DNA from: Nostoc cf. commune SO-36
GTDB taxonomy: Bacteria > Cyanobacteriota > Cyanobacteriia > Cyanobacteriales > Nostocaceae
Direction of reading: 5' to 3'
NCBI RefSeq assembly: GCF_023734775.1
Contig: NZ_AP025732.1
Span: 5,702,501-5,766,500, forward strand
DNA length: 64,000 nucleotides
Shown: positions 26,595-52,986 of the stretch, piece after piece
How the letters are laid out: each line of letters begins with the position of its first letter
How positions within the stretch are numbered: the first letter of the stretch is position 1
Translations under genes and position numbers: made by a program
Notes under the pieces: generated by a model
What the model was told of the DNA's origin: nothing
What the model saw: only the letters and a program-made list of their open reading frames with translations
Databases searched by the model: none

Positions 26595-27025
26595 AGGAGA
26601 GAGTAGGCGCAGGTGGTTGCAGATCAGTCATAGTTACTGGTTTGAGGAAAGTCCGGACTCCCGAAAGACCAAACTTGCTGGATAACGTCCAGTGCGAGCG
26701 ATCGTGAGGATAGTGCCACAGAAAGATACCGCCAGATCAATTAAAAATTAAAAATTAAAAATGTAAAATGAACAATTTTTAATTTTTAATTTTACATTTT
26801 TAATTGTTCTGGTAAGGGTGCAAAGGTGCGGTAAGAGCGCACCAGCAGTATCGAGAGGTGCTGGCTCGGTAAACCCCGGTTGGGAGCAAGGCGATAGGAA
26901 CTACGGTTGGTCTTTTACCAGTTCCGCTCAATGAGAGCCGCTTGAGGCGTTTGGTAACAAACGTCCCAGATAGATAACTGCCCTCGCAAGAGAACAGAAC
27001 CCGGCTTATGTCCTGCTCTCTCCCC
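26595..27025 (+). ncRNA. rnpB: RNase P RNA
   Basis: Catalytic RNA of RNase P, which trims tRNA 5' ends. Conserved core blocks are all present: GAGGAAAGTCCGGACTCC near 26643, AGTGCCACAGAAA near 26732, GGTAAACCCCGG near 26870, GAGCAAGGCGATAGGAAC near 26884, and CAGATAGATAACTGCC near 26968, AGAACAGAACCCGGCTTATG near 26990. The terminal AGAGAG/CTCTCT pairing gives P1. Ends are estimated from P1. The P12 arm is enlarged by a heptamer repeat, a trait described for heterocyst-forming cyanobacteria. Confidence 0.96.
26739..26808 (+). repeat. Heptameric STRR in the P12 arm of rnpB
   Basis: Tandem ATTAAAA units and their mirror image (TTTTTAATTTTTAATTTTAC) fold into one long AT-only hairpin that extends P12. 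The repeat is therefore symmetric and does not disturb the flanking core. Confidence 0.85.
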
Positions 27026-44714: not shown

Positions 44715-44781
44715 GGTTGTTTGAAAAGTGTTTTGCTGTGACTTTAGGCACTTTAGATCCCCCCTAACCCCCTTAAAAAGG

Positions 44782-45063
44782 CTACGGTGTACACACAAGT
44801 CTCTTGATCTGCACCTTTGATGCATCGCCCTGCACCTTTGATGCATCGACTTGCACCTTTGATGCATCGCCCTGCACCTTTGTTGCATCGACTCGCACCT
44901 TTGTTGCATCGACTCGCACCTTTGTTGCATCAACTCGCACCTTTGTTGCATGGTCATTAAATCCAGTATCAATGACAAAATCTAGAGAAAAATCTGGTTG
45001 CGAAGGTAAACGAAAAACCACTGGAATTATTACCCTACCATCGATTACTTGGCCATAAATCAT
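44782..45063 (-). pseudogene. Retropepsin-like aspartic protease, truncated by a minisatellite
   Basis: Residues 1-38 look like the N-terminal half of a clan AA aspartic protease: MIYGQVIDGRVIIPVVFRLP then FVIDTGFNDH with catalytic D32-T33-G34. From residue 39 the normal domain is replaced by seven TKVRVDA/SKVQGDA heptapeptides coded by the 21-bp array, ending KRLVCTP. The flap and second half are missing, so activity is unlikely. The start overlaps the stop of the 90-residue partner upstream (ATGA), showing that the two were translationally coupled. Confidence 0.7.
44811..44951. repeat. 21-bp coding minisatellite, copy 1
   Basis: Seven units of TGCACCTTTGATGCATCGCC-type (21 bases). Each unit codes for a heptapeptide on the minus strand. 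The left flank, CTACGGTGTACACACAAG then TCTCTTGATC, matches the end of the element at 52619-52870 in reverse. Confidence 0.9.
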
Positions 45064-45332
45064 TCAGCAGTACGCTCCATCGCACCACCAAAACTTACAG
45101 CAACGTCATAACCAATCCGTATAGTAAACAATCTCGCGTTCGGGTTTTTCTGTTTTAACTTTAAGGCTGTCTCTACACCAGTTGGATCTATACCATATTC
45201 ACCAGTTTCTGCATCAATTACAATCATCTTGCCGATATTGTCACCAGACTCGACATTTTGACGAATACCGTTTTCGTAAAACTGTTTAGCTCTGAAGGCT
45301 ACTTCTTCTACACTCCAGAAAATTGATTGCAT
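45060..45332 (-). CDS. Small hypothetical protein paired with the aspartic protease
   Basis: 90 residues: VEEVAFRAKQFYENGIRQNV, then KMIVIDAETGEYGIDPTG and FTIRIGYDVAVSFGGAMERT. Soluble, no signal. I recall similar proteins beside clan AA proteases in cyanobacteria, a toxin-antitoxin-like arrangement, but no function is known to me. Its stop overlaps the protease start by four bases. Likely promoter in the 45333-45407 gap, divergent from the pentapeptide gene. The open frame looks intact although its partner is broken. Confidence 0.65.
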   Translation of the reverse strand: MQSIFWSVEEVAFRAKQFYENGIRQNVESGDNIGKMIVIDAETGEYGIDPTGVETALKLKQKNPNARLFTIRIGYDVAVSFGGAMERTAE

Positions 45333-45407: not shown

Positions 45408-45512
45408 CCTTTTAACCTCAACTTAGAAATATATTTAAACTATTCTTGAATTTACAGGAGTGAGCGTGTAGTAAAATTTGCTCACCTCCGTAAAGTGGAA
45501 CATGGCTTTAGA
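45408..45512 (+). repeat. Direct repeat B: promoter and start of the pentapeptide gene
   Basis: Second copy of 44611-44714. It contains the living start AACATGGCTTTAGA of the pentapeptide gene and its leader (TCACCTCCGTAAAGTGG). Confidence 0.8.
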
Positions 45513-47571
45513 CTTCTCCGGTCAAAATCTCCGAGGACGCAACTTCAAAGGTAGAAAAGACCTTGCGGGTGCAAACTTTAGCTATGCCGACATCCGAGGA
45601 GCAAACTTCACCAACGCCAACCTGACAGGGGCAAACTTCAGCCATGCCAAAGCTGGACTGCAACGGCGTTGGGCTATTGGTTTAGTTATTATCTCATTCT
45701 TATTGTCGGGACTGTCAGGATTTCTTTGGGCTGTCAATGGTTACTTGGTGTCGCTGATATTTAGCTCATCCAGTAATGACCAGATTGGGGGCTGGGTTGC
45801 TCTAGTCACATTGATTGCCTTTTTCTTCATCACGATTCGCCAAGGAATAATATCTGGTTTAGGAGCCGTCGCCTTCGCCTTCGCTTTCGCCGTCGCCGCA
45901 ACCGTCGTCGCAACCTTCGCCGTCGCTGGACTCGCAGCCGGAGCCTTCGTCGTCGTCGCAGCCGGAGCCGCAGCCGTCGCCTTCGCCGGAGCCGCAGCCG
46001 CAGCCGCAGCCGGAGCCGCAGCCGTCGTTGGAGCTTTCGCCGGAGCCTTCGCTGTCGCCTTCGCCGTCGCCCCAGCCGTCGCCTTCGCCGTCACCGCAGC
46101 CTTCGCCGGAGTTTTCGCCGGAGCCGTCGCCGTCGCCGCAGCCGGAGCCGCAGCCGCAGCCGTCACCGGAACGTTATTTGGTATCTACATCAGCTGGCGA
46201 GCCATGAAAGGAGATCAAAAACACTCCTTAATTCGCAATATTGCGATCGCCTTTGCTGCAACAGGAGGTACAAGTTTTCGTGGCGCTAACTTAACCAATG
46301 CTGACTTTACCCAAGCTACGCTCAAAAGTACAGATTTCCGAAACACTATTCTTATCTGTAGCCGTTGGCATCAAGCCAAAATGCTTGACCGTGTTCGTCC
46401 TGGCTCAACTTATCTGCAAAACACACAAGTACGTCAACTGCTGGTTACAGGACAGGGACAGGATAAGAATTTTTACCGTGAAAACCTGCGGGGTATCAAC
46501 TTAAAAAAAGCTAACCTAGCAGATGCCAGCTTTATTGGCGCTGACCTCAGTGAAGCCAATTTGCAAGATGCTGATTTGTCAAGAGCAAAGCTCAAGCAAA
46601 CCCAACTAGACGGCACAGATTTAACAGGTGCAACCCTCACAGGCGCGTACATCGAAGATTGGGGCATTACAAATACAACTAAATTGCATGGGGTGAGGTG
46701 TGAATATGTCTTCATGCGCTTACCCACCAAAGAAGACCCCGACCCGCTCCGCAAACCTGATAATAAACAAGAAGTATTTGCAGACGGCGACTTTGCCGAC
46801 TTTATCCAGCCAATTTTTGACACCCTCGACCTTTATCATAATCAAGGCGTTGACCCTCGCGCTGTTGCGATCGCCTTCAAAAACCTTGCCGAAAACCATC
46901 CCGAAGCCGAGTTAGAAATCGTGGCAATGGAGAAACGCGGCGATGATAAAATCTTACTTAGAGCCAAAACCGCCGCAGGTAGCGATAAATCTCAATTAAG
47001 TGCAGAATATTTTGATGACTATAATCAACTTAAAGCGTTATCGCAGAGTCAGCAATTATTGCTGATAGAAAAAGATAGTTATGTTAGTGATTTAAAAAAT
47101 ATGCTCACAACCGCACTTGGGCAGCCTAAATTTTATACACAAGGAGATACAAATATGTCAGATATCAGCGGCATCAATATTGAAGGTAGCAGTAATGTTA
47201 GCGGTATCGCTGGCAATAATTCTATTGCTAATCTAGGAAACATTAGCGGTAACGTGAGTATTGCCCTCACTCAGCTACCTGATGCAACCGATGCCGAGAA
47301 ACCAGGAATTAAAGAATTATTGTCGCAGTTGCAAGATGCAATCATCCAATCCACATATTTGTCAGAAGAAGAAAAAGCTGAGGCGCTGGAACAGGTGAAA
47401 GCTTTAGCTGAAGCTGGTAAAACTCCTCAAGAATCCACCAAGCAAAAGACTGCAAAAACCGCAATCACAATGTTGAAAGGAATATTTTCTGGCTTACCCG
47501 CTGTCGCCTCCCTGGTTGAAGCGGGTAATAAATTATTACCTGCGATCGCCAAGCTATTCAGCTTAGGATAA
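45502..47571 (+). CDS. Pentapeptide-repeat membrane protein with Ala-rich core
   Basis: 689 residues. Order: pentapeptide repeats (residues 2-52, ANFSYADIRGANF); membrane helix (AIGLVIISFLLSGLSGFLW); second helix; an extreme Ala/Val/Phe/Gly block of about 100 residues (FAFAVAATVVATFAVAG) that could make several helices; a second pentapeptide block (TSFRGANLTNADF, LADASFIGADLSEANLQDAD); a soluble region; then SDISGINIEGSSNVSGIAGN and a helical C-terminus (EEEKAEALEQVKALAEAGK to LLPAIAKLFSLG). The start at 45502 matches the duplicated copy; an upstream in-frame TTG is less likely. Function unknown; the C-terminal module also looks like a detachable domain. Confidence 0.75.
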   Translation: MALDFSGQNLRGRNFKGRKDLAGANFSYADIRGANFTNANLTGANFSHAKAGLQRRWAIGLVIISFLLSGLSGFLWAVNGYLVSLIFSSSSNDQIGGWVALVTLIAFFFITIRQGIISGLGAVAFAFAFAVAATVVATFAVAGLAAGAFVVVAAGAAAVAFAGAAAAAAAGAAAVVGAFAGAFAVAFAVAPAVAFAVTAAFAGVFAGAVAVAAAGAAAAAVTGTLFGIYISWRAMKGDQKHSLIRNIAIAFAATGGTSFRGANLTNADFTQATLKSTDFRNTILICSRWHQAKMLDRVRPGSTYLQNTQVRQLLVTGQGQDKNFYRENLRGINLKKANLADASFIGADLSEANLQDADLSRAKLKQTQLDGTDLTGATLTGAYIEDWGITNTTKLHGVRCEYVFMRLPTKEDPDPLRKPDNKQEVFADGDFADFIQPIFDTLDLYHNQGVDPRAVAIAFKNLAENHPEAELEIVAMEKRGDDKILLRAKTAAGSDKSQLSAEYFDDYNQLKALSQSQQLLLIEKDSYVSDLKNMLTTALGQPKFYTQGDTNMSDISGINIEGSSNVSGIAGNNSIANLGNISGNVSIALTQLPDATDAEKPGIKELLSQLQDAIIQSTYLSEEEKAEALEQVKALAEAGKTPQESTKQKTAKTAITMLKGIFSGLPAVASLVEAGNKLLPAIAKLFSLG
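45855..46165 (+). repeat. GCC-rich codon-phase repeat coding the Ala-rich core
   Basis: Irregular tandem GCCGTC, GCCTTC and GGAGCC hexamers, much more GC-rich than the surroundings. In frame they give Ala-Val, Ala-Phe and Gly-Ala pairs. The other strand is also open here but codes only Ala/Thr/Lys and is a shadow. Confidence 0.8.
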
Positions 47572-52389: not shown

Positions 52390-52618
52390 AGCGATTAACG
52401 GTGGGCTACTGAGGGTTAAGTACTAACTATTAACCGTTGAAAGTGAACAATGAATAGTCAAATGTTTGCTATCAACAGTCAATTATTTAGACAAAAGTAA
52501 AATTATGTTACTTTTTTGTAGTTTATTAGATAAATATGACAAAGAAATGTCAAAGATGGTCATCGGTCATTAGACCTCTTGTATAAATTAAAAATAAGAA
52601 CCCCACCTAGTTTGCCTA

Positions 52619-52870
52619 GTGTGTATACACAAATCTTTTAAATTTACTGCGTAGTGTAGGGTAAATTAATTTTTGCAGGTCAATGCAACAAAGGTGCAGG
52701 TCAATGCAACAAAGGTGCAAGTTGATGCAACAAAGGTGCAGGTCAATGCAACAAAGGTGCAAGTTGATGCAACAAAGGTGCAGGTTAATGCAATAAAGGT
52801 GCAGGTTAATGCAATAAAGGTGCAGGTTAATGCAATAAAGGTGCAGGTTAAGAGACTTGTATACACCACC
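52619..52870. repeat. TIR-bounded minisatellite element (21-bp units), copy 2
   Basis: Inverted ends GTGTATACACAAATCTTTTA (52621) and TTAAGAGACTTGTATACACC (52848-52867) bracket about eight 21-bp units of GCAGGTCAATGCAACAAAGG type (52675-52848). Both strands are open through the array; the plus strand gives VNATKVQ heptapeptides and runs out as KVQVKRLVYTT, close to the KVQIKRLVCTP end of the protease copy at 44.8 kb. No gene is interrupted here. Confidence 0.85.
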
Positions 52871-52986
52871 GTAGCTCGAAAAACGGAGAGGGGTGTTAGA
52901 CAATACGGTTTGATTTCGGTTAAGGTTTTTTTTTGATGAAAATTCTAGATCACAAAGACGCGATAAATCATCACAAAGACGGCGAT

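Follow-up and report, generated by a model that had tools for sequence, protein, structure and literature searches.

The MITE BrickBuilt of Porphyromonas gingivalis, as described in the passages of its source available here, consists of a minisatellite lying between a distinct leader and tail and bounded by small inverted ends. It is present in 19 copies per genome, always intergenic, with a variable number of units (PMC4596501). In Streptococcus pneumoniae, BOX elements consist of boxA and boxC flanking a variable tandem number of boxB, and the excerpts used here propose ISSpn2-like ends for them (PMC3049150). Rickettsia palindromic elements are, on the part of the literature drawn on here, known small repeats inserted in frame into genes (PMC10969869). 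From cyanobacteria, the passages at hand describe Nezha, a MITE moved by an insertion sequence, and LTRR, tandem repeats located between genes in Nostoc sp. PCC 7120 (PMC3049150, PMC2408588).

We examined computationally a 64,000-nucleotide stretch of the Nostoc cf. commune SO-36 genome (the window) that contains an element with inverted ends and a 21-bp tandem repeat, and compared it with these systems.

A minisatellite between inverted ends

An earlier note on this DNA had described imperfect inverted ends around eight 21-bp units, and that arrangement is indeed present, in a copy whose ends are degraded. Its parts are as follows.

52616..52874, + strand: the window element at its true limits, 259 bp long
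52616..52635, + strand: left inverted end, CTAGTGTGTATACACAAATC, a degraded version of the 20-bp IS4/Tn5-like end
52616..52674, + strand: leader, 59 bp including the left end, last letters TTAATTTTT
52675..52842, + strand: minisatellite core of eight whole 21-bp units, family consensus GCAGGTCGATGCAACAAAGGT
52843..52874, + strand: 32-bp tail containing the altered right inverted end (52854-52874)

The tandem array as a whole (52674-52851) comprises 8.5 copies of the 21-bp period. The left end, CTAGTGTGTATACACAAATC, has four mismatches to the consensus end, CTACGGTGTACACACAAGTC, and the altered right end was missed by the end-pattern search and recognised by eye. A leader length of 59 bp was found in 30 of 33 distinct leaders, collected with a restrictive pattern. 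Elsewhere in the window lie a bacterial class A RNase P RNA (26600-27023, 255.7 bits) and GCC-rich repeats with periods of 6, 12, and 30 (45865-46168), the latter within a long open reading frame (ORF), 45478-47571, that has an alanine-rich stretch.

A repeat dispersed among Nostoc genomes

Searching the genome that contains the window (7.41 Mb in five contigs) gave 28 alignments, the best non-self match having an E value of 3e-77; merging four continuation pieces (L023, L024, L027, and L028) with their neighbours left 24 places. Both ends were present at 13 of them, 11 recognised by pattern and two (L001, the window copy, and L022) by eye. Another four had one end (L008, L015, L016, and L018), and seven had none (L014, L017, L019, L020, L021, L025, and L026). 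Because these seven arrays lack ends altogether, arrays may exist and persist independently of the ends. Six arrays of the same unit family (family A), namely L015, L017, L019, L020, L021, and L026, form a cluster at G000:C1:2489500-2507500 (L107) in which five are endless; the neighbouring genes there encode an ArgZ-like enzyme, a cadherin/RTX-like protein, and a histidine kinase.

Beyond this genome, the repeat was found in at least 28 of 34 other genomes of the genus, whereas 24 genomes from the remaining families of the order that were searched gave none; the per-genome scoring took part of the candidates, so that these zeros and the copy counts are lower bounds. An exact 38-base pattern matched 39 stretches in GTDB species genomes, 38 titled Nostoc and one Desmonostoc, in a list that may omit records close to the window's genome. 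An exact pattern search of viral contigs had no match, so that carriage by phage was not seen there, and two plasmid records, both from Nostoc, contained partial matches.

Shared ends with a Tn5-like insertion sequence

The 20-bp end occurs in 101 copies in the genome at three or fewer mismatches, against none for a reversed-pattern control. Together with the 24 array places, this result from the genome-wide search proposed in the earlier note supports a dispersed element with consistent ends. Facing copies of the end bound elements with many different interiors. Among the fetched loci, 13 of 31 distinct end-bounded elements were flanked by exact target duplications of 9 to 11 bp, ten of which were exactly 10 bp; flanks taken from different elements matched in 3.5% of cases, a control that is not zero because many of the targets are CCTTAAAAAG-like sites. 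The remaining 18, including the window copy, had no exact duplication. For the 11 of the 31 elements that carry the 21-bp core described here, two duplications were exact and five had at most one mismatch. The target duplications that the earlier note had suggested looking for are therefore a property of many end-bounded elements, at about 10 bp, and are missing from the window copy itself. Many MITEs of this end family (L096, L097, L098, L101, and others) sit inside CCCCCTTAAAAAGGGGG-type palindromic repeats.

In this genome the same ends also bound a 2.8-kb element, L081, whose transposase pieces are split by an ISAzo13-type gene; a Pfam search with these pieces found no match at an E value of 0.01. 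In a genome of the same genus we found a 1,508-bp version with the same ends (L151) and a 490-codon open frame, the product of which matched the IS4-family transposase model NF033590 (E = 1.1e-114) and the Tn5 transposase (E = 1.3e-36); in Pfam it matched DDE_Tnp_1 alone, just below the cut-off. Past the end itself, comparison by eye showed no evident likeness between the leader and the insertion sequence. A search of this genome with one 149-amino-acid C-terminal piece found no intact partner, only the split copy and a 48-amino-acid stretch in another MITE. Since no intact partner was found, the copies in this genome may be stranded and their movement possibly over.

These elements thus have terminal inverted repeats and ends in common with an autonomous insertion sequence. 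They are small (214 to 319 bp across 26 complete elements), occupy 24 places in this genome, and contain no transposase, and orthologous sites were seen both occupied and unoccupied. The end family as a whole shows target-site duplication, a feature that the window copy does not share. We conclude that the feature is very probably a nonautonomous, noncoding MITE with a minisatellite core and Tn5/IS50-like ends, in which units turn over after insertion. Judging from the common ends and the duplications, an IS4-family transposase of the Tn5/IS50 type would move the MITE in trans, and insertion would duplicate about 10 bp of the target. Copies would then persist between genes, decaying through loss of their ends.

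Gain and loss of whole units

Unit number was compared between species at orthologous sites. At the coxA-coxC site, 46 loci were examined (from 53 genomes searched, plus two found earlier), of which 45 could be anchored. Nine of these carry the units, in counts of 8, 11, 10, 7, 8, 9, 6, 6, and 9 at six or fewer mismatches, so that unit number spans 6 to 11 among loci with units; in one of the nine, L232, the left side differs. Three of the 36 loci without units (L169, L233, and L239) show spacers of 0 to 7 bp and are apparent anchoring errors. The spacers of the five comparable copies measure 290, 311, 332, 332, and 353 bp, exact steps of 21 bp, and the unit sequences also vary from species to species. 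The window's own site has eight units in the window, ten and three in two relatives (both without the right end), and none in two others. Differences in unit number, which the earlier note had suggested checking between strains, are thus seen between species at orthologous sites, and the one-unit steps at a single locus are those of a minisatellite or VNTR. The core of the MITE thus gains and loses whole 21-bp units, for which slippage or unequal recombination would be the simplest routes.

Placed arrays lie mostly between genes

According to the earlier note, no frame of the array holds a stop, and the element can insert into a gene on either strand and add TKVQVDA-like heptapeptides, which would make it a protein-neutral mobile repeat. 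Such in-frame insertion into genes matches what the source passages say of Rickettsia palindromic elements (PMC10969869). Several features fit the proposal: the 21-bp period is divisible by three, all six frames of the consensus unit are open, and the canonical element, with its 90-bp framework plus 21n, also has a length divisible by three until the duplication is added. The 26 distinct complete elements, seven of which come from the coxA-coxC site, have lengths of 0 modulo 3 in 15 cases, 1 in seven, and 2 in four. One plasmid record annotates a 50-codon ORF over a partial match as a hypothetical protein. However, three frames of the window array (L001) itself, out of six, contain stops, numbering 5, 3, and 6, contrary to the statement that there are none, and of 434 units examined, 304 are interrupted by a stop in one frame or more when arranged in tandem. 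For 53 arrays examined frame by frame, the numbers that are open in each of the six frames are 24, 37, 21, 50, 23, and 30. The open consensus unit is itself unremarkable, because 11% of shuffled units and 5% of random 21-mers of 40% GC are also stop-free in six frames. No frame is open from end to end in 19 of the 26 complete elements, and the other seven have one such frame each; in the four of the seven that have the standard layout, arithmetic places the register at RSMQQRC, not TKVQVDA.

Nor does the element preserve frame. As the canonical element is 90 + 21n bp and comes with a duplication of about 10 bp, its insertion is 1 modulo 3 and frame-shifting, and the 259-bp window copy is likewise 1 modulo 3. 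Variation in the TKVQVDA frame was 0.147, 0.081, and 0.116 at codon positions 1, 2, and 3, with no concentration at the third position.

We then placed the arrays relative to mechanically called ORFs of at least 100 codons, leaving out arrays that lacked an ORF on both sides and using three overlapping locus sets (24 own, 39 named, and 24 from the same genus) with duplicates dropped within each set. On this count, 72 array placements are between ORFs, three touch an ORF edge, and none is within a preserved gene, which answers the question of inside versus between genes that the earlier note had posed. Two of the ORFs overlapped at an edge, L265 and L017, when translated, matched no Pfam family, and the third case, L139, is apparently the same place as L265, where the array lies by eye upstream of the apparent real start. 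No placed array showed the in-frame, protein-inserting (RPE-like) arrangement of an array inside a gene that is still open.

An array has cut into one gene in the window. The earlier note had pointed to a related array with one end at 44778-44951; we place it at 44782-44951, with a perfect end.

44782..44812, - strand: second copy, which has one end; its tail, including the perfect end (44782-44801)
44813..44951, - strand: second copy, array; no leader or opposite end is present
44952..45063, - strand: remnant, the first 38 codons, of a gene that the second copy truncates and that has 121 codons in three relatives

This copy consists of tail and array alone, adjoining the gene remnant, and its tandem array (44810-44951, 6.8 copies) is related to that at 52674-52851. 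DATKVRV repeats can indeed be read in the ORF at 44782-45063. The start of this ORF resembles a 121-codon protein of three relatives, from which it diverges after codon 38; the comparison took in nine loci, one being the window's own and five having no such protein by the short motif used. The second copy has cut a gene and decayed by end loss. The region of the truncated gene (window 44952-45332) has a 96% identical second copy in the same genome, on contig C3 (G000:C3:17156-17575).

Stops, codon-position variation, placement between genes, and the truncation at 44952 together lead us to reject protein coding of the unit, and for the loci examined they make a protein-neutral mobile repeat extremely improbable. 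Dispersal, consistent ends, and variable unit number are, by contrast, all supported. The MITE codes for nothing that shows selection.

Its position between genes is also what would be expected if the element were kept for promoters, terminators, or protein binding sites that it gives to its neighbours, and bidirectional promoter elements have been reported for BrickBuilt in the passages available (PMC4596501). Against this idea, the window element folds as RNA no better than shuffles (z = 0.16; 106 of 200 shuffles at least as good), no Rfam family lies over it, and divergent, promoter-type gaps are not preferred, with 0 of 14 sampled arrays of 21n period and 1 of 18, 6 of 32, and 2 of 22 arrays in other sets. 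We consider a regulatory array improbable. Active avoidance of divergent gaps, as the first sample might suggest (0 of 14, from 15 given and one unplaced), is not claimed either, the other sets giving 1/18, 6/32, and 2/22 (P = 0.05, 0.17, and 0.17).

A 21-bp period in noncoding arrays

Element L080 (G000:C1:1352131-1352530) has the same ends and an exact 10-bp duplication around a different 21-bp array, family B (AACAAATGCGAACCCCGAAGT type). Each of the 31 further genomes of the genus that were examined contained family B, as against none of 22 genomes of other families; it also occurs as arrays with one end or none (L314:12187-12518 and L351:9828-10134). Noncoding arrays with still other units, of 21 or 42 bp, belong to families C, D, and E (L312:14732-14949, L335:19631-19857, L337:12166-12395, L343:17479-17916, L340:3486-3663, and L341:2757-3014).

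To survey such arrays, DNA was sampled at fixed spacing, amounting to 864 kb of this genome, including the window, and 800 kb from six genomes of the same genus, and noncoding arrays with a period of at least 15 bp that are not heptamer derived were counted. Arrays in open frames that extend for at least 100 codons beyond the array (15 in this genome, 16 in the other six) and heptamer-derived arrays (3 and 2, respectively) were dropped before the count; ten dropped arrays with periods that are multiples of 21 were inspected, and most of them were repeats of a heptamer, coding repeats, or arrays that lie immediately upstream of a gene. The 17 counted in this genome have periods of 21 (11 arrays), 42 (three arrays), 57, 73, and 84. 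Across the seven genomes (1.66 Mb), the period is a multiple of 21 in 28 of 31 noncoding minisatellites, or 26 of 29 without two 84-bp units that are not visibly four 21-mers. The three exceptions have periods of 73 (CRISPR-like), 57 (probably coding), and 22. An array of 73-bp period that resembles a CRISPR array lies at L334:10408-10953.

Coding does not explain the 21-bp step, since it recurs in other noncoding arrays built of different units. Twenty-one base pairs are two turns of the helix. For comparison, the LTRR unit is 37 bp and the boxB unit is larger than 21 bp. In families A to D, 1,096 neighbour spacings, counted for units close enough to match so that units too diverged were missed, equal 21, with two real exceptions (22 and 25 bp); neighbouring units differ at 2,034 letters. 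Either descent has preserved the step very faithfully, or a factor that responds to two turns of the helix maintains it.

Inheritance alone would mean one ancient 21-bp repeat superfamily, its length kept by descent, some copies of which were captured by Tn5-like MITEs. The spacing count is consistent with this, and so is the relatedness of units of families C, E, F, and G, which align better than shuffles; the A-B and B-D alignments are of borderline significance (P = 0.016 and 0.012, with no correction for the 55 pairs compared). Families A and C, however, fail to align (no pair with P < 0.1), and the fidelity of length despite the 2,034 letter differences appears to exceed what we would expect of unconstrained DNA. 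We hold descent from one superfamily to be somewhat short of an even prospect. A helix-phased protein or process that acts on the arrays and maintains the two-turn step would explain why multiples of 21 recur across unit families in the seven genomes. No binding protein or function surfaced in the analysis, however, the units share no common signal of half-turn repetition, and the two genomes of other families (400 kb) yielded no noncoding array for comparison; such a process therefore seems rather unlikely, if worth keeping in view. In its fullest form, which we offer as a tentative proposal of similarly low probability, the intergenic arrays of Nostoc would be a class locked at 21 bp whose several unit families cannot all be aligned with one another; a helix-phased machine, either a DNA-binding protein that acts cooperatively or a process that makes arrays of fixed length, would bind or build them, and Tn5-like MITEs would have taken up arrays at least twice, in families A and B, and spread them.

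Discussion

The earlier note had regarded the repeat as a new element type. As far as the passages drawn on go, BrickBuilt already has this layout (PMC4596501) and BOX has it too (PMC3049150), and the Nostoc MITE is therefore a further case of a known architecture. It differs from BrickBuilt in its unit, which is 21 bp rather than 23 nt, and is set apart from it by description on that length; within-array indels of 0 to 6% are reported for BrickBuilt, and the passages name no parent for it, whereas the Nostoc element has a Tn5-like relative with the same ends (PMC4596501). BOX belongs to another host and has predicted RNA stem-loops in the excerpts used, in contrast to an element that folds no better than shuffles (PMC3049150). 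Unlike Rickettsia palindromic elements, as the source passages present them, the Nostoc element was not found inside any preserved gene among the arrays placed, and it does not form a palindrome that carries an open frame (PMC10969869). Its likeness to Nezha and LTRR is one of description, not of sequence, on the parts of their sources available. The IS50/Tn5 group of the IS4 family is related through the L151 transposase, which matches both models; that group has other ends and another host, and the Nostoc MITE has no transposase. Searches of the literature outside subscription papers found no recognised account of this Nostoc element or of a 21-bp rule, and searches with four forms of the end sequence found no paper.

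What is new here is a cyanobacterial case, together with a same-ended Tn5-like relative, of a bacterial MITE built around a minisatellite, a kind of which few are known. The 21-bp steps of the element provide a natural typing marker. That the 21-bp period is kept while the letters change raises the question of whether the helical phase of bacterial tandem repeats is under selection.
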